Origin: Actinotalea sp. C106
GTDB lineage: Bacteria; Actinomycetota; Actinomycetes; Actinomycetales; Cellulomonadaceae
Direction: 5' to 3'
Assembly (NCBI RefSeq): GCF_023630195.1
Contig: NZ_JALPKN010000004.1
Location: forward strand, 1 to 33,399
Length of the DNA stretch: 33,399 nt
Under the pieces are notes generated by a model, which saw only the letters and a list, made by a program, of their open reading frames with translations, was not told where the DNA came from and ran no database searches. Below, piece after piece: positions 14,404 to 33,399 of the stretch (the first letter of the stretch is position 1; the number at the start of each line of letters is the position of its first letter). Position numbers and translations under genes: made by a program.

Positions 14404-16677
14404 GTGCCTCCTCTCGCCCCACCGACCCTGACGATCATCCAGTGCGTCGTCGCGGGCCTCATCGCGGGCCTGTGCATGCTCCACCTGGGCTGGTGGCGGG
14501 GCGAGCTCCGACGGTCCGGGGCGGGCTGGACCTTGGTGTGGACCGCGGCGCTCGCGGTGCTGTGCCTGGCGAGCGGTCTCACCGGGGTGGTCACCCCCGG
14601 CACCGGCACCGAGGCCCTGCTGCTGGTGCGGTTCTGCGCCTTCGCCGCTGCGGTGGTGCTCGCCCTGCCCGCGATCCGCGCCCTGACCGACGGGCCAGGG
14701 GTCCGCAGCCTCGCCCTGGGCACCCTCGCCTGGTACGGCACCGCCGTGGTGCTCTGGTCGACCACGGACCTCGTCTACACCCACACGATGCTCGACGGGG
14801 TGCCCGCGTACGGCCCGTTCGCCCCTGCCGTGGAGCTGCTGCCCGTGGCCGTCGTCGGGGTGTACGTCGCGGTGGCGGTGCGCTCCCAGCCGATGACCCT
14901 CGTCGGCGCGGTCGTGACGATCGCCGGGTTCACCTCGGCCCTGATGCTGCTGGCCTCTTCCCTCCGTCCCACGAGCCCCACGACCGAGCTGCTCGCCGGG
15001 CTCTGGGTGCTCCCCCTGGTCGGCGGGCTCCAGGTGCTCGCCACGACGCGCATCGCGGCGGTGCGTCGCGAGGCGATCCGGCACGCGACCCGACGGGACG
15101 CCCTCGCCCGGGTCGCGAACGCGGCGTGGTACCTGCGCAGCCCCGAGGCGATCCTCGAGCGGGCCAGGGACGAGTGCCGCGTGGTCCTCGAGGACCCGAC
15201 GATCGAGGGCACCCTGCGCCCCCTGGCCCGCGAACGCTTCGTCGCCGAGTTCGGGCCGGCCGACGGCCACGAGCAGGACGCGGACGCGCGCGCCTTCCAG
15301 CGCGACCTGGCGCGGGTGGTCTCCGGTGCTGCCGAGCGGATCAGCCTGACCGACCGGCTGAGCCACGCGGCGTTCACCGACTCCCTCAGCGGGCTGCACA
15401 ACCGCCCCGCGCTGGACCGCCGGCTCGCCCAGGCCCTCGAACGGGCCAACGTCGAACGGTCCCGTGTCACCCTCCTGTTCTGCGACGTGGAGGGCCTGCG
15501 CAGGGTCAACCACCGGCGAGGCCGGCGCGGCGGCGACGACGTGCTGGTCTACGCCGCCGCGCACCTGGAGGCCGTGGCCGGGCAGCTCGGGTACGTCGCA
15601 CGGCACGGCGGGGACGAGTTCGTCGTCCTGGTCGAGCGCGCCGGCTCCGACGCGGACCTGCGCACCCTCGCGCACCGGCTGCGCGACGGCTTCAGCCCCC
15701 CGGGGTCCGACGTCCTGGGCCCACGCCTCGCCGTCGGGGTCGCCACCTGGCAGCCCGGGGACCTCGTCGACCCGGACGCCCTCCTGCGCGACGCGGACCT
15801 GGCGATGCTCGAGGCCAAGCGGTCCCACGCGGGAGTCGCCCTCTACGACGCCGATCTGCGCACCAAGGTCGCAGCCCAGCTCCAGCTGCGCCGTGAGCTC
15901 GAGCAGGGGCTCGGTGAGCGGGAGATCATCGGGTACTTCCAGCCGCTGAGCGACGCGGTGACTCTGGAGGTCACGAGCCTCGAGGTGCTCGCGCGGTGGT
16001 GCCGGAAGGGCACGGTGCTCCCGCCCGCCGAGTGGTTGCCCTTCGCCGAGGAGAGCGGCCTGATCGTCGAGGTCGGGCGACAGGTCTTCCGGGCGGCCCG
16101 GGAGGGCATGGAGCGCTTCGACCTGCCCGTCGCGGTCAACGTGGCGGCCCGCCAGCTCGACGAGCCGGACTTCGTCACCCACGTCGAGGAGTCCTGGGGC
16201 ACCGACGCGTGGGACCGGCTCACGATCGAGGTGACCGAGAGCGCCCTGCTGTACGACGCCGAGCACGTGCGGGGCTCGCTCGAGGCCCTGGCCGAGCGCG
16301 GGGTGCGGATCGCGATCGACGACTTCGGGACCGGCTACAACTCCCTGTCCCGTCTCGGCGAGCTACCGCTGCACGTGCTCAAGATCGACCGGACCTTCGT
16401 GCAGGAGGTCCGCAGCCCCGAGGGGGCCGCCGTGCTGAGAGCCATCATCGCCCTGGCCGAGGCGCACGGGCTCGACGTGGTCGCCGAGGGGGTCGAGCAC
16501 GCCGACGAGCTCACGGCGCTGGTCGAGATGGGGGTGCGCACCGTGCAGGGCAACATGCTCGGGGCGGCGCGGGCGGGGCTGCCCATCCGCGGTGCCCGCG
16601 CGGAGTCCGCCCGCACCTCACCGGCCGCGGTGCACCTCGCGGCCGTCCACCGGGTGCGGCCCTCGACGACGGTCTGA
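14404..16677 (+). CDS. Membrane-bound GGDEF-EAL protein (cyclic di-GMP synthase/phosphodiesterase)
   Basis: A 757-residue protein with about seven N-terminal transmembrane helices between residues 8 and 213, a linker region (about 215-320), a GGDEF domain (about 325-480) and an EAL domain (about 490-725). The GGDEF signature is intact (RHGGDEF, 400-406) with the upstream metal residue in FCDVEG (D361). No RxxD inhibitory site is seen before it. The EAL domain reads EVL (527-529) and keeps N579, E612 in TES, DDFGTGYNSL (639 on), LKID near 659-662, AEGVE (694-698) and Q715. Its closing motif QGNMLG departs from the usual QGYxF. Both activities therefore look possible. It is the only plus-strand gene here and stands alone between pyrR and nusB. 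Cyclic di-GMP control of the nearby type IV pili is plausible but inferred. Confidence 0.92.
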   Translation: MPPLAPPTLTIIQCVVAGLIAGLCMLHLGWWRGELRRSGAGWTLVWTAALAVLCLASGLTGVVTPGTGTEALLLVRFCAFAAAVVLALPAIRALTDGPGVRSLALGTLAWYGTAVVLWSTTDLVYTHTMLDGVPAYGPFAPAVELLPVAVVGVYVAVAVRSQPMTLVGAVVTIAGFTSALMLLASSLRPTSPTTELLAGLWVLPLVGGLQVLATTRIAAVRREAIRHATRRDALARVANAAWYLRSPEAILERARDECRVVLEDPTIEGTLRPLARERFVAEFGPADGHEQDADARAFQRDLARVVSGAAERISLTDRLSHAAFTDSLSGLHNRPALDRRLAQALERANVERSRVTLLFCDVEGLRRVNHRRGRRGGDDVLVYAAAHLEAVAGQLGYVARHGGDEFVVLVERAGSDADLRTLAHRLRDGFSPPGSDVLGPRLAVGVATWQPGDLVDPDALLRDADLAMLEAKRSHAGVALYDADLRTKVAAQLQLRRELEQGLGEREIIGYFQPLSDAVTLEVTSLEVLARWCRKGTVLPPAEWLPFAEESGLIVEVGRQVFRAAREGMERFDLPVAVNVAARQLDEPDFVTHVEESWGTDAWDRLTIEVTESALLYDAEHVRGSLEALAERGVRIAIDDFGTGYNSLSRLGELPLHVLKIDRTFVQEVRSPEGAAVLRAIIALAEAHGLDVVAEGVEHADELTALVEMGVRTVQGNMLGAARAGLPIRGARAESARTSPAAVHLAAVHRVRPSTTV

Positions 16678-22650: not shown

Positions 22651-23463
22651 TCAGGACCCCGCGACCGGCGCGAACGGGTTGCGGTCGCTCGACGGCAGCT
22701 CGGCAGACGGCGACTCCGTCGGCTCTTCACCCTCGACCGGCTCGTCGCTGGGGGTCGCGGCCGCCTGGTCGGTGAGCACGTAGATGTTGCCGTCGATGGT
22801 GGCCTCCAGGTCGCCCGCGGCCGTGGCGGGACGACCCCCGGAGGCCTCGGCGGCCTGCTGCGTGGTCGTGTTCAAGGCGGTCACCAGGAGCAGCCGGTCG
22901 GTGCCCTCCTGGGCACCCTCGAGGAAGGCTGCGACGTCGGCGTAGGTGCCGACGACGGTGAGGGAGACCGGGATGGCGACGAGGCGGGTGGCCGGCTCGG
23001 GCTCGGCGGGTGCGGCCGCCGCGTCGGGGTCGGCGGTGATGTCCTCACCCTCGGGCTCGGTCGTGTCCTCGGTCTCGGCCGGGGCCGTGGCGACGGGCGT
23101 GGCCACCGGTACCTCGAGGGTCGCGGCCGGACCAGGGCTGACCCCGACGATGGTCACCTTGTACGTCGTCGCCATCTCCTCGAGCTCACGCAGATACCCG
23201 GGGAGGGCCGCGGCGACGGGGATCTGGGCCTGCAGGCCGGCGAGCTCGGCCTTGTAGGTGTCGATCTCGGCGAACTGCTTCTCGAGGGTGGCGAGCTGGA
23301 GGCGGAGGGTGTCCTCACGCGCCTGCTCGTCCACGATGTAGTCGCGGGTCTCCTGGGTCTCGGCGAGCTTGGGGGTCACGGCGAGGAACCAGGTCCCGAC
23401 GAGGATCAGCAGGCTCAGCACCACGGTGCCGATGACCCACGTCCGTGCGGAGGAGGTACTCAT
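22651..23463 (-). CDS. pilO: Type IV pilus assembly protein PilO-like
   Basis: A 270-residue bitopic membrane protein. One transmembrane helix near residues 9-29 ([20 protein letters not shown]) is followed by a coiled-coil (about 35-80, [20 protein letters not shown] on), a ferredoxin-like part interrupted by an acidic Ala/Pro/Glu-rich insert (about 118-160), and a C-terminal acidic tail. PilO pairs with PilN to link cytoplasmic PilM to the outer part of the pilus machine. The ATG is one base after the pilN stop. Long low-complexity segments are unusual compared with proteobacterial PilO but topology, coiled coil and gene order support the call. Confidence 0.85.
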
Positions 23464-23464
23464 G

Positions 23465-24157
23465 TCAGCTGGTCTCCTCGTCGATGAAGCGCTGGGCGTA
23501 GGCGTCCTCGGTGATCTGCACCGTGCCCGACAGCTGGTAGTACACGCCGGACTCGTCGGTGATCTGCGCCGAGGACAACCACGGGTCGGTGAACCCGGGC
23601 ACCTCGGCGAGCTGCTCGATCCAGTCGGCGGTGTCCGGCAGGGTGAGCGACCGAGCCGTGAACGTGAGGGTCCCGACGTTGGGCGCATGGAGCGGGTCGG
23701 TCGGGGCCGTCGGTGGCGTCGTGGGGGTCGCCGCGTTGACGCCGAAGGTGTCGAAGCTGACCCCCGCCGGTGCGGTCGCGGCCACCGCAGCCAGGTACGG
23801 GCGCCACAGCACCTCGGTGGACATGCCGAGCTCGCGCGCCTCGGTCGTCTCGGAGAGCTGGCCCAGCACGCGGGGCACCTCGGCGTACTGGGCCTGCTCG
23901 GCGAGCAGAGCCTGGTTGGTGTCCTGCAGCTCGGTCAGCTCGTTCTGCGCCTGGGTCGCGGAGAACGAGGCCCAGACGAAGAGCATCCCGGCGACGAGGA
24001 TCACGATCAGGACGCTGATGCCGAGCCAGGTCTTGACGCGGCCGAGCTGACGCCCGGCCCGCACCTCGGGGGGCAGCAGGTTGACCTGCGGCAGTCCGGG
24101 AGCGCCCGGGACGGCTGCGCGGGTGTGCACCGGGGCTGGTGCGGCGGTGGTGGTCAC
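23465..24157 (-). CDS. pilN: Type IV pilus assembly protein PilN-like
   Basis: A 230-residue bitopic membrane protein. The N-terminal cytoplasmic tail contains the PilN signature VNLLPPEV (about residue 25), which in other systems docks into PilM. One transmembrane helix follows (about 45-65, LGISVLIVILVAGMLFVW), then a short coiled coil (QAQNELTELQDTNQALLAEQ) and an extracytoplasmic domain. The GTG start overlaps the pilM stop (GTGA, 24154-24157). It forms the M-N-O alignment subcomplex with its neighbours. Confidence 0.88.
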   Translation of the reverse strand: MTTTAAPAPVHTRAAVPGAPGLPQVNLLPPEVRAGRQLGRVKTWLGISVLIVILVAGMLFVWASFSATQAQNELTELQDTNQALLAEQAQYAEVPRVLGQLSETTEARELGMSTEVLWRPYLAAVAATAPAGVSFDTFGVNAATPTTPPTAPTDPLHAPNVGTLTFTARSLTLPDTADWIEQLAEVPGFTDPWLSSAQITDESGVYYQLSGTVQITEDAYAQRFIDEETS

Positions 24158-25215
24158 GCGGCAACTCCAAAGGCCAGGCCGACGGGGATCGCCAGCAACG
24201 AGCTCGAGGACGGCAGATTCCGCTCGGCGGCACCGGACACCTTGAGCGTCGCGAGCGGGTCGCCGAAGGCCACGGGGAGCCGGCTGGCCGTCGACAGGTA
24301 CTGCCCGAGACCGGGAAGAAGACCACCGCCTCCGGTCAGCAGCGCGACGTCGATGCCCGCGCCGGGGTTGTTCCCCGCGTAGTACACGAACGTGTTGCGG
24401 ACCGCCTCGACCAGGGTGCGGGTGACCTCACCGACCGCGGCAGCACCGGCGGAGAGCTCTGGTGCGACGGAGTAGCCGATCCCGATCTCGGTCTTCAGGT
24501 GCTCGGCCTCGGGACCGGCGATCTGCATCTGGCCAGCCAGGGCATCAGTGACGTCCTGGCCGCCCGAGGGCAGGGTGCGGGCGAAGCGGGGGATGCCGTG
24601 CGCGGAGATGATCACGTTCGTCGTGCGGGCGCCGACGTCGACGAGGGCGACGACCTTCTGGGCGTGCTCGCCCCGCGCCATGGCGCGCAGGAGGGCGAAG
24701 GCGTTGAGGTCGACCATCTGAGGGTGCAGGCCCGCGCTCTCGGCGGCCATCACGTTGGATCGCACGGTCTCGCGCGAAGCTGCGACGAGCATGCCCTGGA
24801 CCGTCCGTCCCGAGGTCCCGACGTACTCACCGACCGGGTAGTAGTCGAGCAGCGCATCCTCGACCGGCATCGGCAGGAGCTCCTGCACGTGGAAGGGCAG
24901 CGAGGCGCGCAGCTGGTGCATCGGCAGCCACGGCAGGTCGAGCTCACGCACGATCACGCGGGGGTTGCCCACGCCCAGCACGACGTCGCGGGTGCTGAAC
25001 TTGGCCCGGCGCCACAGGTCACGCAGGGCCGAGGCCACGGTCTCGGGCTCGGCCACCTCGGCGTCCAGCACCGCACCGGCCGGCAGGCCGACCTCGGCGT
25101 ACCTCACCAGCGTGGGCTGGTGCTTGCCCGTGGGGCCGCCCGGTCCGAACTCGAGCTCGGCCGCCCTGACGGCGGTCGACCCGATGTCGAGACCGACCAC
25201 TCGCGATTTCCCCAT
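24154..25215 (-). CDS. pilM: Type IV pilus assembly ATPase-fold protein PilM
   Basis: A 353-residue actin-like cytoplasmic protein that binds the PilN tail. The actin-fold signatures are visible: phosphate-1 VVGLDIGSTAVRAAEL at the N-terminus, phosphate-2 VVALVDVGARTTNVIIS near the middle, and the adenosine motif DVALLTGGGGLLPGLGQYLS. LPFHVQELLPMPVEDALLDY is characteristic of PilM. The ATG at 25215 is preferred to a much longer open frame reaching upstream into the prepilin peptidase gene, because the family starts here and GGAGAG precedes it. It is the first gene of pilM-pilN-pilO and is preceded by a FliA-like promoter element. Confidence 0.94.
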   Translation of the reverse strand: MGKSRVVGLDIGSTAVRAAELEFGPGGPTGKHQPTLVRYAEVGLPAGAVLDAEVAEPETVASALRDLWRRAKFSTRDVVLGVGNPRVIVRELDLPWLPMHQLRASLPFHVQELLPMPVEDALLDYYPVGEYVGTSGRTVQGMLVAASRETVRSNVMAAESAGLHPQMVDLNAFALLRAMARGEHAQKVVALVDVGARTTNVIISAHGIPRFARTLPSGGQDVTDALAGQMQIAGPEAEHLKTEIGIGYSVAPELSAGAAAVGEVTRTLVEAVRNTFVYYAGNNPGAGIDVALLTGGGGLLPGLGQYLSTASRLPVAFGDPLATLKVSGAAERNLPSSSSLLAIPVGLAFGVAA

Positions 25216-25259
25216 GGATTCTCTCCGCCTCTGATGGTTGTCCAGCGCGCATGCAGATT

Positions 25260-25290
25260 CCTTATCGGTGCATGGCGGCGCATTCTTGAG
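25260..25290 (-). promoter_or_regulatory. Candidate FliA/WhiG-type (sigma-28) promoter of pilMNO
   Basis: On the minus strand CTCAAG (25285-25290) is separated by 15 bases from ACCGATAA (25262-25269). The -10 matches GCCGATAA at seven of eight positions. The leader to the pilM ATG would be about 40 bases. The element matches the one before pilA in both sequence and spacing. I recall that FliA-dependent promoters in motile actinobacteria such as Actinoplanes have a CTCA-type -35. Confidence 0.6.
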
Positions 25291-25301
25291 GGAAACCACC
25301 C

Positions 25302-25317
25302 GACGGCGTGAGCCGTC
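25302..25317 (-). terminator. Small hairpin between prepilin peptidase and pilM, possible terminator
   Basis: GACGGC and GCCGTC (25302-25307, 25312-25317) pair around a four-base loop. On the minus strand the stem is followed by GGGTGGTTTCCC, with only a short T-run. It lies between the prepilin peptidase stop and the pilM promoter candidate, where a partial terminator would make sense. Confidence 0.4.
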
Positions 25318-25364
25318 ACGTCGGACGGATGCCGAGACCTCGGCGCCATGCCTTGAGCTCGGCG

Positions 25365-26186
25365 CTAGAGGATCAGCCCGAGGTAGGCCGACCAGAGCGC
25401 CTCGCCCCAAGCGATCCCGATCGCCGCCCCGGCCACCATCCAGGGGCCGAAGGGGATCCCGGACTTGCGCCCGGCACGTCCGGTCAGCACCAGTGCGACG
25501 GCGAACACGCCCCCGACGAGGAAGGCCGAGAAGGCCCCGATGACCAGGGCACCCCACCCCAGCCAGGCGAGGTAGAGCCCGAGCACGCCGGCGAGCTTGA
25601 CGTCCCCGAACCCCATGCCGCGCGGGTAGACGATGAGGAGCAGGAAGTAGAAGACGAAGAGGATCGCCCCGCCGAGGCCTGCGCGCAGCAGGCTGCCCCA
25701 GTCCCCCGTCCCCCAGGTCGCCAGCCCGAGGAGCGCGGCGGCCACGCCGTAGGACGGCAGCACGATGGCGTCGGGCAGCCGGTGCACGTCGATGTCGATC
25801 AACGTGAGCGCGAGCCCGATCGCCGCGAGGTAGAAGAAGGCGGGCAACGCCCACACCCCAGGGACGTCGACACCGAAGCGCGCCGTGACCAGCACGAAGA
25901 GCGCGGCCGTGGTGATCTCGACGAGCGGGTAGCGGGGCGAGATGCGCGCGTCGCAGTCGCGGCAGCGTCCGCGCAGCCACACCCAGGACAGGACCGGGAC
26001 GTTGTCGCGGCGCCGGATCGGGTGCTCGCACTGCGGGCACGCGCTGGGCGGCGAGACGATCGACTCGCGGCGGGGCACGCGCCACACCACGACGTTGAGG
26101 AAGGACCCGATGAGCAGGCCGAGCACCCCCGCCACGACGTAGACAGCGGTGAGCATCGGCCCGCTCACGGCCGGCAGGTCGGTCAT
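25365..26186 (-). CDS. pilD: Prepilin peptidase / N-methyltransferase (type IV leader peptidase)
   Basis: Membrane aspartyl protease that cleaves class III leaders after glycine and N-methylates the new N-terminus of pilins. The 273-residue protein has about eight transmembrane helices, GSFLNVVVWRVPRRES after the first, and the cytoplasmic zinc motif CPQC...CRDC (about 50-80). The two catalytic aspartates lie in LIDIDVHRLPD and GMGFGDVKLAG. The Cys motif implies the methyltransferase domain is present. The ATG lies one base after the PilX-like gene. Its substrates would include PilA and the three minor pilins here. Confidence 0.95.
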   Translation of the reverse strand: MTDLPAVSGPMLTAVYVVAGVLGLLIGSFLNVVVWRVPRRESIVSPPSACPQCEHPIRRRDNVPVLSWVWLRGRCRDCDARISPRYPLVEITTAALFVLVTARFGVDVPGVWALPAFFYLAAIGLALTLIDIDVHRLPDAIVLPSYGVAAALLGLATWGTGDWGSLLRAGLGGAILFVFYFLLLIVYPRGMGFGDVKLAGVLGLYLAWLGWGALVIGAFSAFLVGGVFAVALVLTGRAGRKSGIPFGPWMVAGAAIGIAWGEALWSAYLGLIL

Positions 26187-26187
26187 C

Positions 26188-27792
26188 TCAGGGGATCTCC
26201 TGGTACCCGTCCAGCGAGGCCTGGATGGACGTGGGCGGCGCGTTCCACTTCTGGCCGAGGCCAGAGTTGCACTGCGTGACCGTGATCTTGGACCAGGCGT
26301 CGTACTTGTCACCGAGCGAGGCGCAGCGGCCCCAGTGGTCGCGGAACGTGTAGGAGTCACCGTAGTTGCCGGTGTCGGCGTACCGGGTCCACTTCTGGTT
26401 GTTGGCCGCCCCGTTGCACGCGCTCGTGAGGGTCACGTAGCCGCCCTCGGTGTTGGGTGAGACCAGGCACCACCGGTCAGAGGTGCTGCCCTGGTTGTAC
26501 ACGTAGATCTGCTGCGCCGCGGCGATCCCGACCTTGTCCGGTGGCTCGGAGTAGTACCACTTGTGGTTCCAGTCCAGCCGGGAGCCACCCGAGGGGTCCT
26601 GCTTGCAGGGGTACACGATCATGAACGCCTTACCCACCTGCCTGTCGGTCACGTCGAAGCAGCGTCCGAACTCGAGGTAGTTGACGATCTGTATCGTGCT
26701 CGCGCCTGCCGGACCGGCGCCCACGCGGGGGTCAGGGTTGAAGGAGCCCCACTCGTTGTTGTTCGCCGCCTGGTTCCAGACATGCAGGTAGCGGCCGCTC
26801 ACGACGTCGGAGCGCACCCCGCTCGAGAGCCAGAAGTTGCTGTACCCGTTGGAGATCGGACTCTGCTGGCCCCGCCAGATGGCGCCGCCTTCCCAGCTGA
26901 AGAGCTGGTTCCAGCGAGAGGCCGACGTCTCGGGCACGCACACCTGGAGAGTCGCGAGCACGGGCGTCGTGCCGTTCGGGCTACCCGTCACGCACAGCGG
27001 CTCCTGCCCGGTTCCCGGAACCGTCGTGCTGGCCAGCTTGATGCGGTAGTCCGCGTCATACAGCCAGAGCTGGTGCACGTCGTCGGTCCCGCAGGTCACC
27101 GCAGGCACGTACTTCACGTACGCCCCGACGGTCGCCGACTCCGCCTCCAGGCAGAAGCGGTCCGGCGTGAAGGCCGCACGGCTGTCATAGCTGTAGATCA
27201 GCCCGCCGGGAATGTTGTTGTTCGTGATCTGGAACTCGTAGACGACCTGGACGGTGCGGTTGCCCGCGTCCGCACTCATCCCGGCGACACCCTCACCGAC
27301 ACCTTCGGAGGTCACCAGCGCGTACGTGGGGTCCCCCGACGGGCCCGAGCCCGGGGTGCAGCCCATCGCGTGGCTCGCGAGCCACGCGTCGGGGCGCCCG
27401 GTCGGGTCCTCGAGGTAGTACCGCACGGTCGCGGCGTAGCGCAGGCCGTCACCCGCACCGCCCACCGGCCCTTCGGCGGTGCACGGCAGCTTGTTCGTGT
27501 CGCCGTAGACGGTGTTGGTCACGTCGGGCGGCGCGTCGGCAGTACGGATCTGGCCGACGACGGCGTTCACGCCGGCCTCGGCAGCGAAGACCGTCTGGCT
27601 GCTGGTCCTGGCGAAGGACGTCGGGACCAGCTGCGAGAGCAGCACGCCGAGCAGCAGGATGCTGAGCATCGCCGTGAGCATGATCGCGATGAGCGTGGTC
27701 ACCATGGCCATGCCGGAGTCGTCGTGCCGGACGGCACGACCCATCCCGGCGCGACGCAGCGCACGCTCGGCGGCGGGGGGCAGAGGGATCAC
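26188..27792 (-). CDS. PilX-like minor pilin with C-terminal ricin-B-like beta-trefoil repeats
   Basis: A 534-residue protein. The basic leader ends at Gly27, followed by a PilX-type hydrophobic helix (about 28-52, MAMVTTLIAIMLTAMLSILL) and the PilX-like VFAAEAGVNAVV segment. From about 205 to 520 it holds repeated lectin-like units, each with a CLxxx/CVT/CFDV/CLVS/CASL start and an aromatic end: HQLW (240-243), RWNQLFSW, NHKWYY, NNQKWTRY and GQKW (513-516). These QxW motifs and paired cysteines mark ricin-B-type beta-trefoils, probably two. The start chosen is GTG 27792, which overlaps the PilW-like stop by four bases and has TGGAG five bases upstream; a GTG at 27816 would add eight residues. 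A lectin on a minor pilin suggests glycan binding at the pilus tip, which is inferred. Confidence 0.85.
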   Translation of the reverse strand: MIPLPPAAERALRRAGMGRAVRHDDSGMAMVTTLIAIMLTAMLSILLLGVLLSQLVPTSFARTSSQTVFAAEAGVNAVVGQIRTADAPPDVTNTVYGDTNKLPCTAEGPVGGAGDGLRYAATVRYYLEDPTGRPDAWLASHAMGCTPGSGPSGDPTYALVTSEGVGEGVAGMSADAGNRTVQVVYEFQITNNNIPGGLIYSYDSRAAFTPDRFCLEAESATVGAYVKYVPAVTCGTDDVHQLWLYDADYRIKLASTTVPGTGQEPLCVTGSPNGTTPVLATLQVCVPETSASRWNQLFSWEGGAIWRGQQSPISNGYSNFWLSSGVRSDVVSGRYLHVWNQAANNNEWGSFNPDPRVGAGPAGASTIQIVNYLEFGRCFDVTDRQVGKAFMIVYPCKQDPSGGSRLDWNHKWYYSEPPDKVGIAAAQQIYVYNQGSTSDRWCLVSPNTEGGYVTLTSACNGAANNQKWTRYADTGNYGDSYTFRDHWGRCASLGDKYDAWSKITVTQCNSGLGQKWNAPPTSIQASLDGYQEIP

Positions 27793-28418
27793 GGTCGCTC
27801 CAGGAGGTTCTGGCACACCACGGTGTCGGTCGAGGCCTTGGCGCTGTTCCGGGCGACGAAGACCGTGCTGACGTCGGCCCCCGGCGCCGAGTCCGTACCG
27901 CCCTCGCCCGCGCCCGCGTCGAGGGCGACAGCCAGCTGTTGCCGGCTACGCCCGTCACCCACGGGGTACAAGGTGAACGGGGGGTGGACGGTCACGTCGT
28001 TGCGGATGTCGGTCGCGACGGTCCGCCAGCTGCTCCGCGTAGCAGACGGCGTGTCCCGCCAGGTGCGCTGCTGGAGCACACGGTTGGTCGGGTCGAGCCG
28101 CCACTGGGTGCACAGCGGGGCGAGCCCGTCCGGCTGCGACCCGGTCAGGAACTCGACGTAGTGCGACCCGCTGCCCCCCGTCCCCGGGGTGTTGATCGCC
28201 GAGGCGTAGCGGATCTGCCGGTCCATGGTCTGGAAGGCGCTCCGGACAGAGTTGCCCGCGGCCGTGACGTCCTGGGACCGCGACGTGCTGCGGGTCATCG
28301 TGATCAGCCCGCCGAAGAAGACGGCCAGGACGACCGTGAAGATGCCCATCGACACCAGGAGCTCGATGAGGGTCATCCCCTCATCACGGGACCGGAGGCG
28401 AGCGCGCAGGTGGTCCAT
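27789..28418 (-). CDS. PilW-like minor pilin
   Basis: A 209-residue pseudopilin. The leader MDHLRARLRSRDEG is cut after Gly14, and the mature protein starts MTLIELLVSMGIFTVVLAVFFG with the conserved Glu at mature position 5. The rest is a soluble domain with FQTMDRQIRYASAI, typical of PilW/PulJ-type minor pilins, and two well-separated cysteines. The ATG overlaps the stop of the upstream PilV-like gene by one base (TGATG), and its own stop overlaps the PilX-like gene. It probably belongs to a tip-priming complex with the two neighbouring minor pilins. Confidence 0.88.
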   Translation of the reverse strand: MDHLRARLRSRDEGMTLIELLVSMGIFTVVLAVFFGGLITMTRSTSRSQDVTAAGNSVRSAFQTMDRQIRYASAINTPGTGGSGSHYVEFLTGSQPDGLAPLCTQWRLDPTNRVLQQRTWRDTPSATRSSWRTVATDIRNDVTVHPPFTLYPVGDGRSRQQLAVALDAGAGEGGTDSAPGADVSTVFVARNSAKASTDTVVCQNLLERP

Positions 28419-30262
28419 CACTTGTTCCTGAAGGTGTAGCTCACGGTCACGGTCTCCGAACGCAGCTGGGACAGCGGGCCGGCGCCCTCGAGGGTGTAGG
28501 TGAACGAGCAGGTGCGGATCCCGTCCGTGTTTCTGATGTCTGGCAGCGCGACCTGGATCTCGCCCTGACCGAGACGGGTCTGGGCCGGGAACGTCCCGCA
28601 CGTCGCGGGGAGGGACTCGTAGCGCACGGTCACGCCGGTTGCCGTGGAGAAGGTGGTCGGAGCGTCGTTGAGCCCGACCGGGAAGTTGACCGTCCGGTTG
28701 TCCGCCTGCTCCCCGTAGCTGTCGGCCCCGGCGACGGGCACCACGCGCAGGGTCACGCTCTTCGGGTCGGACGTGCCCCCACCGTCACGGGAGACGACGT
28801 ACCGGAACGTGTACTCGCCGACCACGTTGCGGGGCGGGCTGTACTGGACGTCGAGACTCCGGTTGCTCGTCCCGGACGCCGACGTGCTCGTGTAGGTGGT
28901 GCCCCCGACGCGGAGGGTGCCCGCCGTGGGGCGGGGCCCCACGATGGTGATGCCGAGACCGGACCGGTCGTCGATCCCGGTGAGGAGCGTGTCAGTCAGA
29001 GAGGTCCAGACGTCGGCGCTCGAGGCCCGTGCGTCCACCACGATCGTGTGGTCCTGCGTGGCGAGGGACTCGATCAGGATGTTGACCTGGGCCGGGGTGC
29101 TGATCTGCCCTGAGGCGTCGGTGTACGTGTACTGGAAGGAGTCCGAGCCGCTCTCGACGTTCGGGGTGTACGTCACGGTGAGCCCAGAGGTCGTCACCGT
29201 GCCGCTCGTGGGCTGGGCGGTGATCTGGATGCTCGCGGGTGTGCCGTTGTCGTTCGCGAGGACGCCGAGCGGTGTCCCGGTACCGGACCGAACCCGGAAG
29301 GAGTCGTTGGTCACCAGGGGCTTGACGTACACGCGGACCGTCGCGGGATCGGACTGCCGACCAGCCCGGTCCTTGATGCGGTACGTGAACGGGTAGATCC
29401 CCGAGCCGGTCGCGGGCGCCGTGTAGCTGACCACGCCGTTGCTCGCGACCGAGATCGTCCCCTGGCCTGGAGCGGGGTAGGTGACGGGCAGGACGGGGTT
29501 GGAGGTCACCGGGCCGATCACGTCGTTGTCGAGCACGGCGATCGCGATGGTCTCGCCGTGCAGGGCCTCGGCGAAGTCCTCGACCGCGACCGGCTCGACG
29601 ACCTGGTTCCAGGTGAGGTCGCCCGAGCGGTCGATCAGTCCGCTCAGCTGGTAGGTGCACAGCCCGTCCCCGCACTCCCCCGCGGTGGGGGCCCAGGTGA
29701 CGACGGTGGTGACACGCAGGAGGCGGACCATCCCAGCGGGCGTGCTCTCCTCGGGGAGGGCGTCGGCCACGCCGGGAAGCTTGGTGCAGGTCTGGTCGGG
29801 GGCCAGGACGTCGCTCTTGCGGTAGCAGATCCCGATGAGGGTGGTGGCGCGGTAGCGCTGGCCCGAGTGGGTCACGTCGTCTCTGAGGGCAACGGCCGGC
29901 CGGACGGCGGTCGGCGTCGGGTCCCAGATCGGGTACGTGTCCGCCAGCCCCTCGACCCCGAGCCCGGACAAGCGGGCCCACTCGGCCTCGACGTCCGCCT
30001 GAAGACGGCCGGCCGCGAGGGCCGAGCTCGTGGTCCCCAGGCTCGCGACCGGGTTCACCGCGTAGGCCTTCTCCATGGCCTCATTGGCGACCGCGACGGC
30101 GTTCTGGGACCGCTGCAGGTGGCTGGTGGTGCGGGTGCCCTCGATGAAGAAGTACAGCGCTGCCGTGGCGACGATACCCAGCAGGATGAGCGAGACGATG
30201 ACCTCGATCAGCGTGAAGCCGGCGTCGGCGGGTGCGCGCCGATCTCGCTTGCTGCGGTTCAT
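28418..30262 (-). CDS. PilV-like minor pilin with four Ig/cadherin-like domains
   Basis: A 614-residue protein, several times longer than a normal minor pilin. The leader ends at Gly15 and is followed by FTLIEVIVSLILLGIVATAA with Glu20 as mature Glu5. A pilin-like region with paired cysteines runs to about 215. Then come four beta-sandwich repeats at about 222-313, 316-397, 403-508 and 512-612. They share features of cadherin-like or tandem-95 adhesin domains: VLDNDV and VLANDNG, GTISV/GTVTT, VSYTAP/VTYTP, YPFTYRIKD/DSFQYTYTD, and a closing SDPATVRVYV or STPAQVNILI. This would place a rod of extracellular domains on a pilus subunit, suggesting an adhesin. SD-like AAGGAC precedes the ATG. pilA lies upstream, separated by a terminator-like hairpin. 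Confidence 0.88.
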   Translation of the reverse strand: MNRSKRDRRAPADAGFTLIEVIVSLILLGIVATAALYFFIEGTRTTSHLQRSQNAVAVANEAMEKAYAVNPVASLGTTSSALAAGRLQADVEAEWARLSGLGVEGLADTYPIWDPTPTAVRPAVALRDDVTHSGQRYRATTLIGICYRKSDVLAPDQTCTKLPGVADALPEESTPAGMVRLLRVTTVVTWAPTAGECGDGLCTYQLSGLIDRSGDLTWNQVVEPVAVEDFAEALHGETIAIAVLDNDVIGPVTSNPVLPVTYPAPGQGTISVASNGVVSYTAPATGSGIYPFTYRIKDRAGRQSDPATVRVYVKPLVTNDSFRVRSGTGTPLGVLANDNGTPASIQITAQPTSGTVTTSGLTVTYTPNVESGSDSFQYTYTDASGQISTPAQVNILIESLATQDHTIVVDARASSADVWTSLTDTLLTGIDDRSGLGITIVGPRPTAGTLRVGGTTYTSTSASGTSNRSLDVQYSPPRNVVGEYTFRYVVSRDGGGTSDPKSVTLRVVPVAGADSYGEQADNRTVNFPVGLNDAPTTFSTATGVTVRYESLPATCGTFPAQTRLGQGEIQVALPDIRNTDGIRTCSFTYTLEGAGPLSQLRSETVTVSYTFRNK

Positions 30263-30302
30263 CGTCCGTCCTTCAGTGGTTGTGCGATGCCGACGTACGC
30301 GG

Positions 30303-30333
30303 GATGGGCCGGGGCCGTCGGCCCCGGCCCATC
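30303..30333 (-). terminator. 14-bp perfect hairpin after pilA, terminator or attenuator
   Basis: Arms GATGGGCCGGGGCC (30303-30316) and its complement (30320-30333) flank a three-base loop, starting 12 bases after the pilA stop. No U-tract follows. It would let the major pilin be made in excess over the downstream minor pilin genes, either by partial termination or by stabilising the pilA mRNA 3' end. Confidence 0.7.
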
Positions 30334-30344
30334 ACCACGTCAGC

Positions 30345-30761
30345 TCAGGAACAGACCGACGTGCCCGACGGCTGCAGCCCGCCCTTGTCGCTGTCGTAGG
30401 CCCAGGCCTGCGTGCCGGGCTGTGCAGCACTGGCGCGAGAGGCGATGAGGCAGAAGCCGGTCGCACCCGAATCCAGGGTGTAGGCGATGGTCGTCTGGGG
30501 GTCCTTCGTCGCGTTGAGAGCCAGGAAGGCCGCGTTGTCCGCGGGATACGCCTGCTTGTCGACGAAGTTCGTCTCGACCGCGGTCGCGGCGGTCCGGAGG
30601 TCCGACTTCATCGAGGCGTCGACCGCGGACTTGCGCTGGTTGAGGAAGACCGGGATCGCGATCGCCGCGAGGATGCCGATGATGATCATGACGACGAGGA
30701 GCTCGATCAGGGTGAAGCCCTGGTCCTTCTCCTCGATGGACTTGCGGATGCGAGCAATCAC
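30345..30761 (-). CDS. pilA: Type IVa major pilin
   Basis: A 138-residue prepilin. The 15-residue leader MIARIRKSIEEKDQG is cut after Gly15. The mature N-terminus FTLIELLVVMIIIGILAAIA, IPVFLNQRKSA is a textbook type IVa helix with Glu at position 5. The soluble domain contains TNFVDKQAYPADNAAF and ends with two cysteines (GFCLIAS and SVCS) that can form the C-terminal disulfide. Mature length is 123 residues. The GTG at 30761 has AAGGAGAG just upstream. It has its own FliA-like promoter, a roughly 90-base leader with a hairpin, and a hairpin after the stop, all consistent with high independent expression. Confidence 0.95.
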   Translation of the reverse strand: MIARIRKSIEEKDQGFTLIELLVVMIIIGILAAIAIPVFLNQRKSAVDASMKSDLRTAATAVETNFVDKQAYPADNAAFLALNATKDPQTTIAYTLDSGATGFCLIASRASAAQPGTQAWAYDSDKGGLQPSGTSVCS

Positions 30762-30799
30762 GAGATGCTCTCCTTCGGTGTCAGGACGAATGGTGTGAG

Positions 30800-30818
30800 G
30801 AATCGGGCGGGCCGATTC
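30800..30818 (-). other. Hairpin in the pilA mRNA leader
   Basis: GAATCGG (30800-30806) and CCGATTC (30812-30818) pair perfectly around a five-base loop, 39 bases before the pilA start. With the predicted start site near 30850 it would sit in the middle of the leader. It could stabilise the message or bind a regulator. It does not match a cyclic di-GMP riboswitch. Confidence 0.5.
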
Positions 30819-30857
30819 GGACCTGCGGGGTACTGCGCTTCCTGCCTTGCATCTGCT

Positions 30858-30886
30858 TCATCGGGCGCGCGCCCGGGCACCTTGAG
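30858..30886 (-). promoter_or_regulatory. Candidate FliA/WhiG-type (sigma-28) promoter of pilA
   Basis: On the minus strand CTCAAG (30881-30886), 15 bases and CCCGATGA (30858-30865) repeat the element seen before pilM with identical spacing. The spacer contains a 14-bp palindrome, CGGGCGCGCGCCCG (30862-30875, overlapping the -10). Transcription would start near 30850. Confidence 0.55.
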
Positions 30887-30935: not shown

Positions 30936-32165
30936 CTACTCGATGAGCTCGAAGATGTTGAAGATGGGCAGGTAGAGCGCGATGATCATGGTTCCCACGA
31001 TGCCGCCGAGCACGGCGATCATGATCGGCTCGATCATCGCCGTCAGCTGCTCGGTCGTCGCCTCGACCTCCTGGTCGTAGAAGTCGGCGATCTTCGCCAG
31101 CATCGTGTCCAAGGCGCCCGTGTCCTCACCCACGGCCATCATCTGCACCACCATGGGCGGGAACACGCTGTGCTGGGACAACGGGCCCGTGAGGGACTCA
31201 CCGCTGCGCACCGACTCTTGGATGTCCCGGGTGGCGTGCTCGATGACGATGTTGCCGCTCGTCGCCCCGACGATGTTGAGGGCCTGCAGGATCGGCACAC
31301 CGGCATGGATCATCGTGCCGAAGTTCCGGGTGAAGCGGGCGACCGCGATCTTCTGGAAGAGCTTGCCGAAGATCGGCGCCCGCAGCTTCCACGGGTCGAC
31401 CTTCTCCCGCACCGACTGCTTGTGCTTGTTCTTGCTCCACCAGACAGCGAAGAGCACCAGCCCCACGAGGATGATCGGGCCGCCGATCTTCATCCACTCC
31501 GACAGCACCACGAGGATCTGCGTGGGCAGCGGGAGGGTGCCGCCAAGGTTGGCGAACATGTTGGCGAAGATGGGCACGATGAACAGCAGCATCCCGACCA
31601 CGGCGAGGATCGCGATCACGAACACGACCACGGGATAGGTCATCGCGGACTTGACCTTGCCGCGCAGCTTGACCTCGGCCTCGAAGTTCTCTGCGATCGA
31701 GACCAGCACCCGGTCGAGGAAGCCACCGACCTCACCGGCCTTGATCATGTTGACCATGAGGGGCGGGAACACCGCGGGGTGCTTCTGCAGCGCGACGGAC
31801 AGCGCGATGCCCGTCTCGACGTCGCCGCGCACCTGGGCGACGATCTTGGCGAGGGGCTTGCTCTCGGTCTGGTCCGCGAGGATCGACAGCGCCCGCAGGA
31901 TCGACAGACCCGAGTCGATCATCGTCGACAGCTGCCGGGACAGGATCGCCAGGTCCTTGAGCGTGATCCGGTCGGACATCCCCGGGATCTTGATCTCGGT
32001 CTGCAGCCCACCGGTGCTGACCTCGTTGAGGGAGATGGGCGCCATGCCCATGGTGCGCAGGCGCGTGACGACGGCGGCCTGGCTGTTGGCCTCGATCCTG
32101 CCCTTGACGATCTTGCCGCCGTTGTCACGAACGGCGTACTCGAAGACCTTGGTCTCGGTGGCCAT
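30936..32165 (-). CDS. pilC: Type IV pilus inner-membrane platform protein PilC
   Basis: A 409-residue polytopic membrane protein of the GspF/PilC family that couples the PilB and PilT motors to pilin assembly. It contains two copies of the family domain: LSRQLSTMIDSGLSILRAL, then GEVGGFLDRVL, followed by FTRNFGTMIHAGVPILQAL, then GEDTGALDTML. Each is followed by membrane helices (VVVFVIAILAVVGMLLFIVP, PIMIAVLGGIVGTMIIALYL). The N-terminal cytoplasmic region begins VFEYAVRDNGGKIVKGRIEA. The ATG at 32165 lies one base after the pilT stop, so the two are cotranscribed; an in-frame upstream start would run into pilT. Confidence 0.95.
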   Translation of the reverse strand: MATETKVFEYAVRDNGGKIVKGRIEANSQAAVVTRLRTMGMAPISLNEVSTGGLQTEIKIPGMSDRITLKDLAILSRQLSTMIDSGLSILRALSILADQTESKPLAKIVAQVRGDVETGIALSVALQKHPAVFPPLMVNMIKAGEVGGFLDRVLVSIAENFEAEVKLRGKVKSAMTYPVVVFVIAILAVVGMLLFIVPIFANMFANLGGTLPLPTQILVVLSEWMKIGGPIILVGLVLFAVWWSKNKHKQSVREKVDPWKLRAPIFGKLFQKIAVARFTRNFGTMIHAGVPILQALNIVGATSGNIVIEHATRDIQESVRSGESLTGPLSQHSVFPPMVVQMMAVGEDTGALDTMLAKIADFYDQEVEATTEQLTAMIEPIMIAVLGGIVGTMIIALYLPIFNIFELIE

Positions 32166-32166
32166 G

Positions 32167-33399
32167 TCAGGCTCCCATCCCGGCATAGCCGGCCGAGGTC
32201 GGATCGGCCTGCATGGCCGCGGTCATGCCCTGGCCCACGCTCGAGGTCCGGCCCACGAGTCGGTTGAAGTCCTCCACGTGGTGGCACTTCTCGAGGCCGG
32301 CCTCGTAGGTGATCTTGTTCGCGCGGACCAGGTCGGCGATGTGCTGGTCCATGGTGTGCATCCCGAGCTTGGCCCCGGCCTGCATCGCGGAGTAGACCTG
32401 GTGGGTCTTGCCCTCGCGGATGAGGTTGCGGATCGCGGGGGTCGCGATCATGACCTCGGTGGCGACCGCACGCCCTCCCCCGACCCGCTTGCACAGGGTC
32501 TGGCAGACGACGCCCTGCAGCGCGCTGGCCAGCTGGGTGCGGACCTGGGACTGCTGGTGGGAGGGGAACACGTCGATGACACGGTCGATGGTCTGCGCGG
32601 CGTCCTGCGTGTGGAGGGTCGCGAAGACGAGGTGACCGGTCTCGGCCGCGGTGAGGGCCACCGAGATCGTCTCCAGGTCACGCATCTCGCCGACCATGAT
32701 GATGTCCGGGTCCTGGCGCAGCACGTGCTTGAGCGCGTTGGCGAAGGAGAGCGTGTCCGCCCCGACCTCGCGCTGGTTGATCAGCGACTTCTTGTGGCGG
32801 TGCAGGAACTCGATCGGGTCCTCGACCGTCATGATGTGGTCGTTGCGGGTCCGGTTGGCGAGGTCGACGATGGCCGCCAGGGTCGTCGACTTGCCCGACC
32901 CGGTCGGGCCGGTCACGAGGACCAGGCCGCGAGGCATGCCCGCGAAGTTCGCCACCGACGCCGGCACGCCCAGGGTGTCGAGGGGCTTGATCTCGTAGGG
33001 GATCATGCGGAACGCCGCACCGACCGAGTCGCGCTGCTTGTACATGTTGACGCGGAACCGCGAGACCCCGCGGACCGCGTAGGCGAAGTCCAGCTCGAGG
33101 TGCTGCTCGAAGGTCTCGCGCTGCTTCTGGCTCAGTACCGCGTAGAGGCTGCGCTGCAGCGACTCGGCGAGCAGCACCGGGAAGTCCTCGAGCGGCCGCA
33201 GGCCCCCGTCGAGCCGGACCATCGGCTGGGCGCCCGAGGTGAGGTGCAGGTCGGAGGCCCCCATGTCGATCATCATCCGCAGGGCGTCGTCCAGGTCGAG
33301 GTCGCCCTCGTGCACGACCTGAGCCAGACCCACCCGGGCGCTGCGCTCAGGCCCGCGCCCGGCGGCGGGAGGACGCGGGGGGGCCCCGGCAGCGGTCGC
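32167..33399 (-). CDS. pilT: Type IV pilus retraction ATPase PilT, 5' end may lie outside window
   Basis: Hexameric ATPase that powers pilus retraction and twitching. Motifs: MGASDLHLTSGAQPMVRLDG, Walker A VTGPTGSGKSTTLAA, Asp box MTVEDPIEFLH, Walker B PDIIMVGEMRDLETIS, His box VFATLHTQDAAQTIDR and the C-terminal region HQVYSAMQAGAKLGMHTMDQ. The first visible start is a GTG at 33333, but no Shine-Dalgarno precedes it and the frame stays open for 22 more codons, encoding a Pro/Ala-rich stretch, to the window edge. The true start may therefore be outside. The AIRNLIREGKTHQ region and MDQHIADLV separate it from PilB, which is not in the window. Confidence 0.92.
   Translation of the reverse strand, partial: ATAAGAPPRPPAAGRGPERSARVGLAQVVHEGDLDLDDALRMMIDMGASDLHLTSGAQPMVRLDGGLRPLEDFPVLLAESLQRSLYAVLSQKQRETFEQHLELDFAYAVRGVSRFRVNMYKQRDSVGAAFRMIPYEIKPLDTLGVPASVANFAGMPRGLVLVTGPTGSGKSTTLAAIVDLANRTRNDHIMTVEDPIEFLHRHKKSLINQREVGADTLSFANALKHVLRQDPDIIMVGEMRDLETISVALTAAETGHLVFATLHTQDAAQTIDRVIDVFPSHQQSQVRTQLASALQGVVCQTLCKRVGGGRAVATEVMIATPAIRNLIREGKTHQVYSAMQAGAKLGMHTMDQHIADLVRANKITYEAGLEKCHHVEDFNRLVGRTSSVGQGMTAAMQADPTSAGYAGMGA

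Follow-up and report, generated by a model that had tools for sequence, protein, structure and literature searches.

The stretch of DNA analysed here, 33,399 nucleotides long and referred to throughout as the window, is an entire contig (C444) from the fragmented genome of Actinotalea sp. C106 (3,618,467 bases in 661 contigs), and it carries a type IV pilus gene cluster with two promoter-like elements, one upstream of pilM and the other upstream of pilA, that are the subject of this work. (Handles such as G012, C159 and L070 are our own for genomes, contigs and loci.) On the minus strand, Pfam matches give the order pilT, pilC, pilA, two minor pilin-like genes, a gene for a ricin-B-lectin protein, pilD, pilM, an open reading frame in the pilN position and pilO, after which come the genes for chorismate synthase, shikimate kinase and dehydroquinate synthase (Table 1). 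The window ends within the N-terminal extension of pilT; a long extension is also seen at the locus of a sister genome (L070), with a start some 165 codons farther upstream, and the true start of pilT probably lies beyond the window. The ricin-B-lectin protein is a possible candidate for a sugar-binding adhesin at the pilus tip. A PilM search of named genomes returned 15 loci, the best in Actinotalea soli (97%), with twelve others at 53-82% (Actinotalea, Cellulomonas and Demequina) and two at 25-29% in other phyla, which marks the source as an Actinotalea-like member of the Cellulomonadaceae.

Table 1. Pilus genes, predicted promoters and the GGDEF-EAL gene in the window
Feature	Coordinates	Strand	Basis or remark
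pilT, ATPase	32167..33399	-	PF00437; cut by contig end
pilC, inner-membrane platform	30936..32186	-	PF00482
pilA promoter (predicted)	30858..30886	-	paired boxes
pilA, major pilin	30345..30761	-	PF07963; TIGR02532 prepilin motif; GTG start
minor pilin-like protein, Ig-like (Big_9) domains	28418..30262	-	domain match
minor pilin-like protein (N_methyl)	27789..28601	-	domain match
ricin-B-lectin domain protein among the minor pilins of the pil operon	26188..27816	-	PF00652
pilD, prepilin peptidase	25365..26360	-	PF06750 and PF01478
pilM operon promoter (predicted)	25262..25290	-	paired boxes
pilM	24154..25215	-	PF11104, 142.5 bits; translation; ATG start at 25215
pilN by position, between pilM and pilO	23460..24326	-	open reading frame list; no Pfam match
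pilO	22651..23688	-	PF04350
GGDEF-EAL protein (c-di-GMP turnover)	14404..16677	+	homology, NCBIfam

A preliminary description of this DNA proposed that paired, equally spaced boxes stand before pilM and pilA, and both pairs are present on the minus strand. The pilM element consists of CTCAAG at 25285-25290, a spacer of 15 nucleotides (N15) and ACCGATAA at 25262-25269, and ends 46 nt before the start codon (25215); that of pilA consists of CTCAAG at 30881-30886, N15 and CCCGATGA at 30858-30865, and ends 96 nt before the start codon (30761). Dinucleotide shuffles of the window gave a mean of 0.00 matches (100 shuffles, spacer 14-16). The elements had also been placed in the only two longer gaps of the locus; they do occupy the two longest gaps that the pil locus has within the window (about 150 and 174 bp by open reading frame ends), but the window cuts pilT, and the sister genome has a third such site between pilB and pilT. 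There, at L070, CTCAAG-N15-GTCGATAA (11 of 12 positions in the score defined below) lies 48 nt before the pilT open frame, between pilT and a pilB-like gene (pilB by eye). Given where the window ends and where the sister site lies, the third site of strain C106 itself would be on another contig.

The -10 boxes had been likened to the sigma-28 consensus GCCGATAA, and the likeness is borne out: by eye, ACCGATAA agrees with it at 7 of 8 positions and CCCGATGA at 6 of 8, the consensus being taken from excerpts of PMC8325347, according to which 12 mapped promoters of Rubrobacter radiotolerans match TAAA and GCCGATAA with at most two mismatches. The -35 sequence TAAA is not matched at N15 from the -10, the bases there being CAAG (2 of 4 by eye). 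TCAA, with 3 of the 4 bases of TAAA, is present at N17 from the -10 (by eye), and this variant is common to most relatives; in the WhiG promoters of Rubrobacter, TAAA and the -10 are reportedly separated by N15. Judged by their -35, the elements are not classical sigma-28 promoters, and we claim them as predicted promoters that would work like that class.

A genome-wide scan with CTCAAG-N15-NCCGATRA, as the preliminary description had advised, gave exactly two matches, both at the pil locus and none before flagellar genes. That uniqueness is partly circular, the pattern having been derived from these very sites, which lends something to the alternative that the boxes are a two-part transcription factor site or a chance pair; conservation in relatives provides a test free of that circularity. 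The looser pattern CTCAAG-N14..16-NYCGATR gave 10 genome-wide matches against 2 for its reversed form. Four of these lie within genes (L107, L108, L110 and L111) and six near gene starts (scripts and eye), namely those of pilM, pilA, L112, which resembles the LuxR-type genes of congeners (by eye; a contig end cuts it), L109, a marginal metallopeptidase match, L115, PP2C-like by eye, and L116, which has no gene identity. With TMAA-N15..18-CCGATNA the genome yields 12 matches, two of them the pil sites.

For the test in relatives PilM was searched in 59 genomes, that of strain C106 included, with a match in 39; 37 loci were fetched, the partial match of G051 being left out, and the window brought the total to 38. 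Sites were scored over 12 positions (CTCAAG, CCGAT, then A or G) with a spacer of 14-16, taking the best site in the 166 bp before the start. With the window included, pilM has a 12/12 site in 20 of 38 loci and at least 11 in 31, and pilA has 12/12 in 18 of 34 and at least 11 in 25, while random windows of that size, drawn from the same loci on both strands with true sites retained, reached at least 11 in 44 of 4560 cases and at least 10 in 172. For pilT, 25 of 32 regions (two shortened by contig ends) reached at least 11, and for pilB 5 of 29, with a recurrent variant composed of a CTNCAG-like -35 and GCCGATAG; the pilT and pilB regions scored were larger than 166 bp, which raises their chance rate. 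Low pilM scores were found in G012, G019, G053 and G032 (10), G040 and G046 (9) and G057 (8), and nine pilA regions score below 11, among them that of G003, where a site matching at all 12 positions lies 132 nt upstream of pilA, beyond the scored stretch. In genomes that lack FlhA the pilM site is kept (G016 12/12, G022 11, G019 10, G012 10). Given this conservation over a background of 1%, at similar distances from the start codon and in many genera, and a -10 close to the known sigma-28 -10, a factor site or a chance pair is very improbable.

The preliminary description had called for a FliA/WhiG-family sigma gene, and the genome has two, WhiG on contig C159 and a diverged FliA-type sigma beside flagellin on contig C133. 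The C159 protein scores 362.4 bits against the NCBIfam equivalog NF004935, 'sigma factor WhiG' (cut-off 343), also passes the FliA/WhiG subfamily model, and has as its best match in the PDB 6pfj_A, the WhiG of Streptomyces venezuelae (332.8 bits; best FliA 155.8); its gene adjoins rpsB (by eye). The C133 sigma falls under both the FliA/WhiG cut-off (168 vs 189.6) and the FliA cut-off (152.7 vs 201), and its contig also holds fliF, fliD and flgK. A comparison of WhiG from 21 genomes with flagellar sigmas from 8 gave 39 differing positions, defined as fixed in at least 90% of the WhiGs and in all of the flagellar sigmas; three of them, E266Q, M272L and H273R, are in region 4.2, where the differences may set promoter specificity. 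Three congeners (G004, G012 and G016) have a flagellar-type sigma (154-158 bits) in the absence of FlhA.

When spaced word pairs were counted in the flagellar clusters of seven congeners with no motif set beforehand, CTCA-N17-CCGAT ranked first (17 regions, 7 genomes). An earlier idea, that flagella here do without a sigma-28-type promoter, came from a search with TMAA-N14..19-CCGAT that gave 3 intergenic sites in 2 genomes, and was dropped after this ranking; the same regions held 1 SigB-type, 1 sigE-type and 0 TTGAC-type matches. Counting CTCA to CCGAT at every spacing from N10 to N25, we find 32 sites at N17 in the flagellar stretches of eight genomes (our own, L067 and L069, and the seven congeners), with 1 at N18 and no more than 7 at each remaining spacing, as against 14 at N18, 0 at N17 and at most 4 elsewhere in the pil loci of the seven congeners. 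The flanking bases differ too. In the flagellar class CTCA is followed by T or C at 27 of 32 sites and CCGAT by C or G at all 32; in the pil class CTCA is followed by A at 12 of 14 sites and CCGAT by A or G at 13. With N18 and AG, the two window sites stand outside the flagellar class.

Given that both promoter types share CTCA and CCGAT, that both sigmas belong to the FliA/WhiG family, and that in Actinoplanes the genes of pili and flagella alike are under WhiG-like flagellar sigmas (excerpts of PMC8325347), a common motility programme in which the C133 sigma drives both flagella and pili deserved consideration. However, spacer and flanking bases differ consistently in the seven congeners; G022, which lacks FlhA and a second FliA-type sigma, still has an 11/12 pilM site, its only two FliA/WhiG-model matches being a WhiG-type one at 248 bits and a weak one at 106 bits that is probably the principal sigma; and G021, G035 and G036 have FlhA but neither PilM nor WhiG. 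We therefore regard a single flagellar sigma for both as quite unlikely. Of the earlier suggestion that the pili are under a motility sigma factor, the sigma-28-class sites, the presence of such sigma genes and a conservation far above chance hold up, and the flagellar sigma as their reader does not, the spacers of the two classes being different and PilM following WhiG.

When all 38 pil loci are taken together, the sense strand has 56 CTCA-CCGAT pairs at N18, 11 at N17 and 13 at N14, counts that, with the diverged pilM -35 of G012 (CTCATC), speak against a full split, and the spacer split between pilus and flagellar promoters is thus strong, not absolute. The 11 pairs at N17, and several pilA sites that carry CTCAAG-N14, would fit a situation in which both sigmas read the pil promoters, WhiG being dominant and the spacer difference a mere bias; the absence of N17 from the seven congener pil loci and the lone N18 in the flagellar stretches would not. 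This arrangement is compatible with WhiG as the pilus sigma and overlaps with it in probability, and we consider it a minority possibility, if a real one.

The distribution of the genes was examined in a table of 39 genomes, our own included, counted without regard to relatedness, as are all co-occurrence figures here. WhiG and PilM occur together in 28, WhiG alone in 1 (G004), PilM alone in 0 and neither in 10, so that PilM is found in 28 of 29 WhiG-positive and 0 of 10 WhiG-negative relatives. For FlhA and PilM the corresponding numbers are 24 with both, 3 with FlhA only, 4 with PilM only and 8 with neither (PilM in 24 of 27 FlhA-positive and 4 of 12 FlhA-negative genomes), and PilM tracks WhiG more closely than it does FlhA. 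WhiG coincides with an RsiG or RsiG-like protein in 29 genomes, either occurs alone in 0, and 10 have neither; by genus, 11 of 21 have WhiG, PilM and RsiG or RsiG-like, and the other 10 have none of them. In a sample of the class (246 genomes per search, taken as one set), 95 genomes have a WhiG-type sigma at E<=1e-54, 93 of them over the curated cut-off. Here PilM and the WhiG-type sigma are both present in 52 genomes, PilM only in 16, the sigma only in 43 and neither in 135, which puts the sigma in 52 of 68 PilM-positive vs 43 of 178 PilM-negative genomes, 21 of those 43 belonging to family f37, presumably Streptomyces; for PilM and FlhA the same classes hold 17, 51, 14 (FlhA only) and 164.

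The Pfam model of RsiG (PF22802) detected full RsiGs in six order-level relatives, each with at least one strict E-S-R-Q-D motif and five with two, and weak matches (21-27 bits) in ten nearer genomes. Nine of the ten sequences, once extracted, aligned as a single family, and a profile built from 7 members identified a protein in our own genome (C277:14415-14804, 190 bits) and members in 29 of the 59 genomes, all 19 genomes of the genus among them. PF22802 matches 20 of 23 members at E<=1 (best 1.9e-6), and 10 other listed Pfam families match at most 2 members each; one G025 protein is matched by both profiles (49.8 bits with PF22802, 65.5 with the new one), and the G016 member is just over the PF22802 cut-off (27.2). 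In the alignments the cyclic di-GMP (c-di-GMP) signature E(X)3S(X)2R(X)3Q(X)3D, of which RsiG has one or two copies, is missing in the C277 protein, whose first copy retains R and D alone and whose second is lost. The first helix of the subfamily now reads E-x6-W-R-R-L-x-R-A-R-L-D; across nine aligned members it keeps the R and D of the motif (9/9) and has R for Q (9/9) and a non-serine for S (8/9), and the second motif is lost. With the protein below the PF22802 cut-off and without the motif, we therefore call it RsiG-like, not RsiG. Its structural model (pLDDT, predicted local distance difference test, 73.7) has two long helices, at 16-51 and 90-133, where RsiG has two that pair as an antiparallel coiled coil; the best 50 rows of a VIA-align search were common two-helix hairpins with no RsiG row, which is not evidence against the fold, and the alignment profile found only unrelated or designed proteins among PDB sequences.

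The rsiG-like genes may themselves be under a promoter of this kind. The protein core was recognised in 21 of 25 loci, and each of these 21 carries CTCAAG, without mismatch, 136-166 nt before that core; total scores reach at least 10/12 in 19 and at least 11 in 9, where the best site was taken within 300 bp and a score of 10 is expected by chance more often than in the shorter windows (3.8%). Two of the four loci without a recognised core were examined; both have CTCAAG, and their scores are 9 and 10. Further loci score 12 (G032), 11 (G022), 9 (G025) and 10 without CTCAAG (G038). G025 also encodes a second protein with two RsiG matches (G025:C1:418869-419321) near flhA (421538), a candidate anti-sigma for the flagellar sigma.

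Beyond these loci, CTCAAG-N15-NCCGATR has 122 matches in 23 genomes (0-14 each) against 5 for the reversed control. Twenty matches picked by eye for recurring spacers or position, a non-random choice that illustrates a regulon and does not measure it, comprise five before BldC-like genes, five before LuxR-type genes, five before genes of a large membrane protein (four alike) and five with no clear gene. One example of each of the three kinds was tested: L134 exceeds the cut-off of the BldC model of NCBIfam (98 bits), L139 has PF00196, and L145 has GGDEF and EAL domains. The bldC site recurs in congeners (L132-L137, the gene seen in 5) and in another family (L138, no gene by script) with a conserved ATGTCCGGTTT-like spacer, which suggests that a second regulator binds inside the promoter. 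That congener sites recur before rsiG-like, bldC, LuxR-type and GGDEF-EAL genes counts further against a chance pair or a transcription factor site, to which CTCAAG-N15-NCCGATR matches in WhiG-negative genomes lend some support. GGDEF-EAL homologues in congeners have CTCAAG-N15-NCCGATA upstream; the GGDEF-EAL gene of the window has no such site (best 9/12), and the sister genome is likewise without one. In Streptomyces a GGDEF-EAL enzyme is an RsiG antagonist, according to excerpts of PMC13232838, and the gene near the pil cluster is therefore worth testing.

We propose that the two elements are promoters of the WhiG holoenzyme, that the flagellar sigma is separate, and that the RsiG-like protein acts as an anti-sigma factor under feedback, a reading to which, on the sequence evidence, we assign a probability of about 0.8. 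WhiG would read CTCAAG at -35 and NCCGATRR at -10, transcripts would begin about 7 nt downstream of the -10, near 25255 and 30851, and WhiG would thereby switch on the pilM operon and pilA and, in relatives, also pilT and, in variant form, pilB. The diverged FliA-type sigma would serve the flagellar genes through a sister promoter whose boxes stand one base closer together. The RsiG-like protein would probably bind WhiG as its anti-sigma, and expression of its gene from a weak WhiG-type promoter would close a negative feedback loop.

Several observations weigh against this proposal. The C277 protein scores 18.1 bits against a PF22802 cut-off of 27; comparison of the RsiG-like profile with true RsiGs gave an E of 0.0074 and a probability of only 5%; and Foldseek placed S. 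venezuelae RsiG chains at ranks 1 and 3 with non-significant E values (0.8 and 1.2). The site upstream of our own rsiG-like gene is poor (CTCAAG-N14-GTCGACAA, 10/12). WhiG-negative G026, G027, G029 and G030 have 1, 5, 4 and 2 matches to CTCAAG-N15-NCCGATR, where 19 WhiG-positive genomes have 0-14; such counts by themselves do not point to WhiG, and part of the 122 is thus background, which the reversed pattern understates. Neither this background, nor the poor site of our own rsiG-like gene, nor the G038 site without CTCAAG alters the probability given above. To these are added the N14 sites before pilA, the disregard of relatedness in the co-occurrence counts, and G004 (550 contigs), with WhiG and an RsiG-like protein and no PilM. 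In the class sample 16 of 68 PilM-positive genomes have no WhiG-type sigma at E<=1e-54, and pili elsewhere therefore use other sigmas. In G012 (locus L077) the pilM site is CTCATC-N15-GCCGATAG (10/12) and the pilA site scores 9/12. As this genome has WhiG, RsiG-like and PilM yet diverged pil promoters, it offers a natural test of sigma specificity.

The proposed system resembles the WhiG-RsiG sporulation switch of Streptomyces in having an orthologous sigma beside rpsB and an RsiG-related partner, but the partner is shorter and lacks both E-S-R-Q-D motifs, and the predicted targets of the sigma are pilus genes, not sporulation genes. Cellulomonadaceae are a family of unicellular bacteria. The closest parallel is the (RsiG)2-(c-di-GMP)2-WhiG switch of R. 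radiotolerans, for which excerpts of PMC8325347 describe WhiG promoters, three of them within the pilus cluster and five upstream of diguanylate cyclase or phosphodiesterase genes. As there, WhiG-type promoters stand before several transcription units of a pilus cluster, an RsiG-related protein is present, and in congeners the predicted regulon includes c-di-GMP turnover genes; unlike there, the -35 is CTCAAG with a longer spacer in place of TAAA-N15, the RsiG-like protein has no c-di-GMP signature, and flagellar genes are present with sister promoters of their own. In the control of zoospore pili and flagella in Actinoplanes missouriensis, as given in the same excerpts, a FliA/WhiG-family sigma likewise serves pili and flagella, but RsiG is absent and here two promoter classes part pili from flagella.

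Among the titles and abstracts listed by searches of the open-licence PMC literature, none besides PMC8325347 links WhiG with type IV pili, or either with Cellulomonas or Cellulomonadaceae. WhiG control of pili is thus known from Rubrobacter (excerpts of PMC8325347); what is new is the predicted spread of WhiG-type pilus control to Cellulomonadaceae, the spacer split and the altered RsiG. At somewhat less than even odds, we suggest that in Cellulomonadaceae and their neighbours an RsiG subfamily without the c-di-GMP signature runs the WhiG pilus switch blind to c-di-GMP or with another ligand and under autoregulation, a single base of spacer insulating the pilus (WhiG) from the flagellar (FliA) promoters.

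The paired promoter classes offer a ready setting in which to study how two paralogous sigmas are kept from cross-talk, and the RsiG-like protein would, if the proposal is true, show a second-messenger switch rewired by loss of the ligand site with the partner kept. WhiG is best known for its part in spore formation in Streptomyces. Should WhiG prove to be the sigma of pili in much of the Actinomycetales, a role suggested for it in the deep-branching Rubrobacter, pilus control would be a good candidate for its original function, and sporulation for the derived one.

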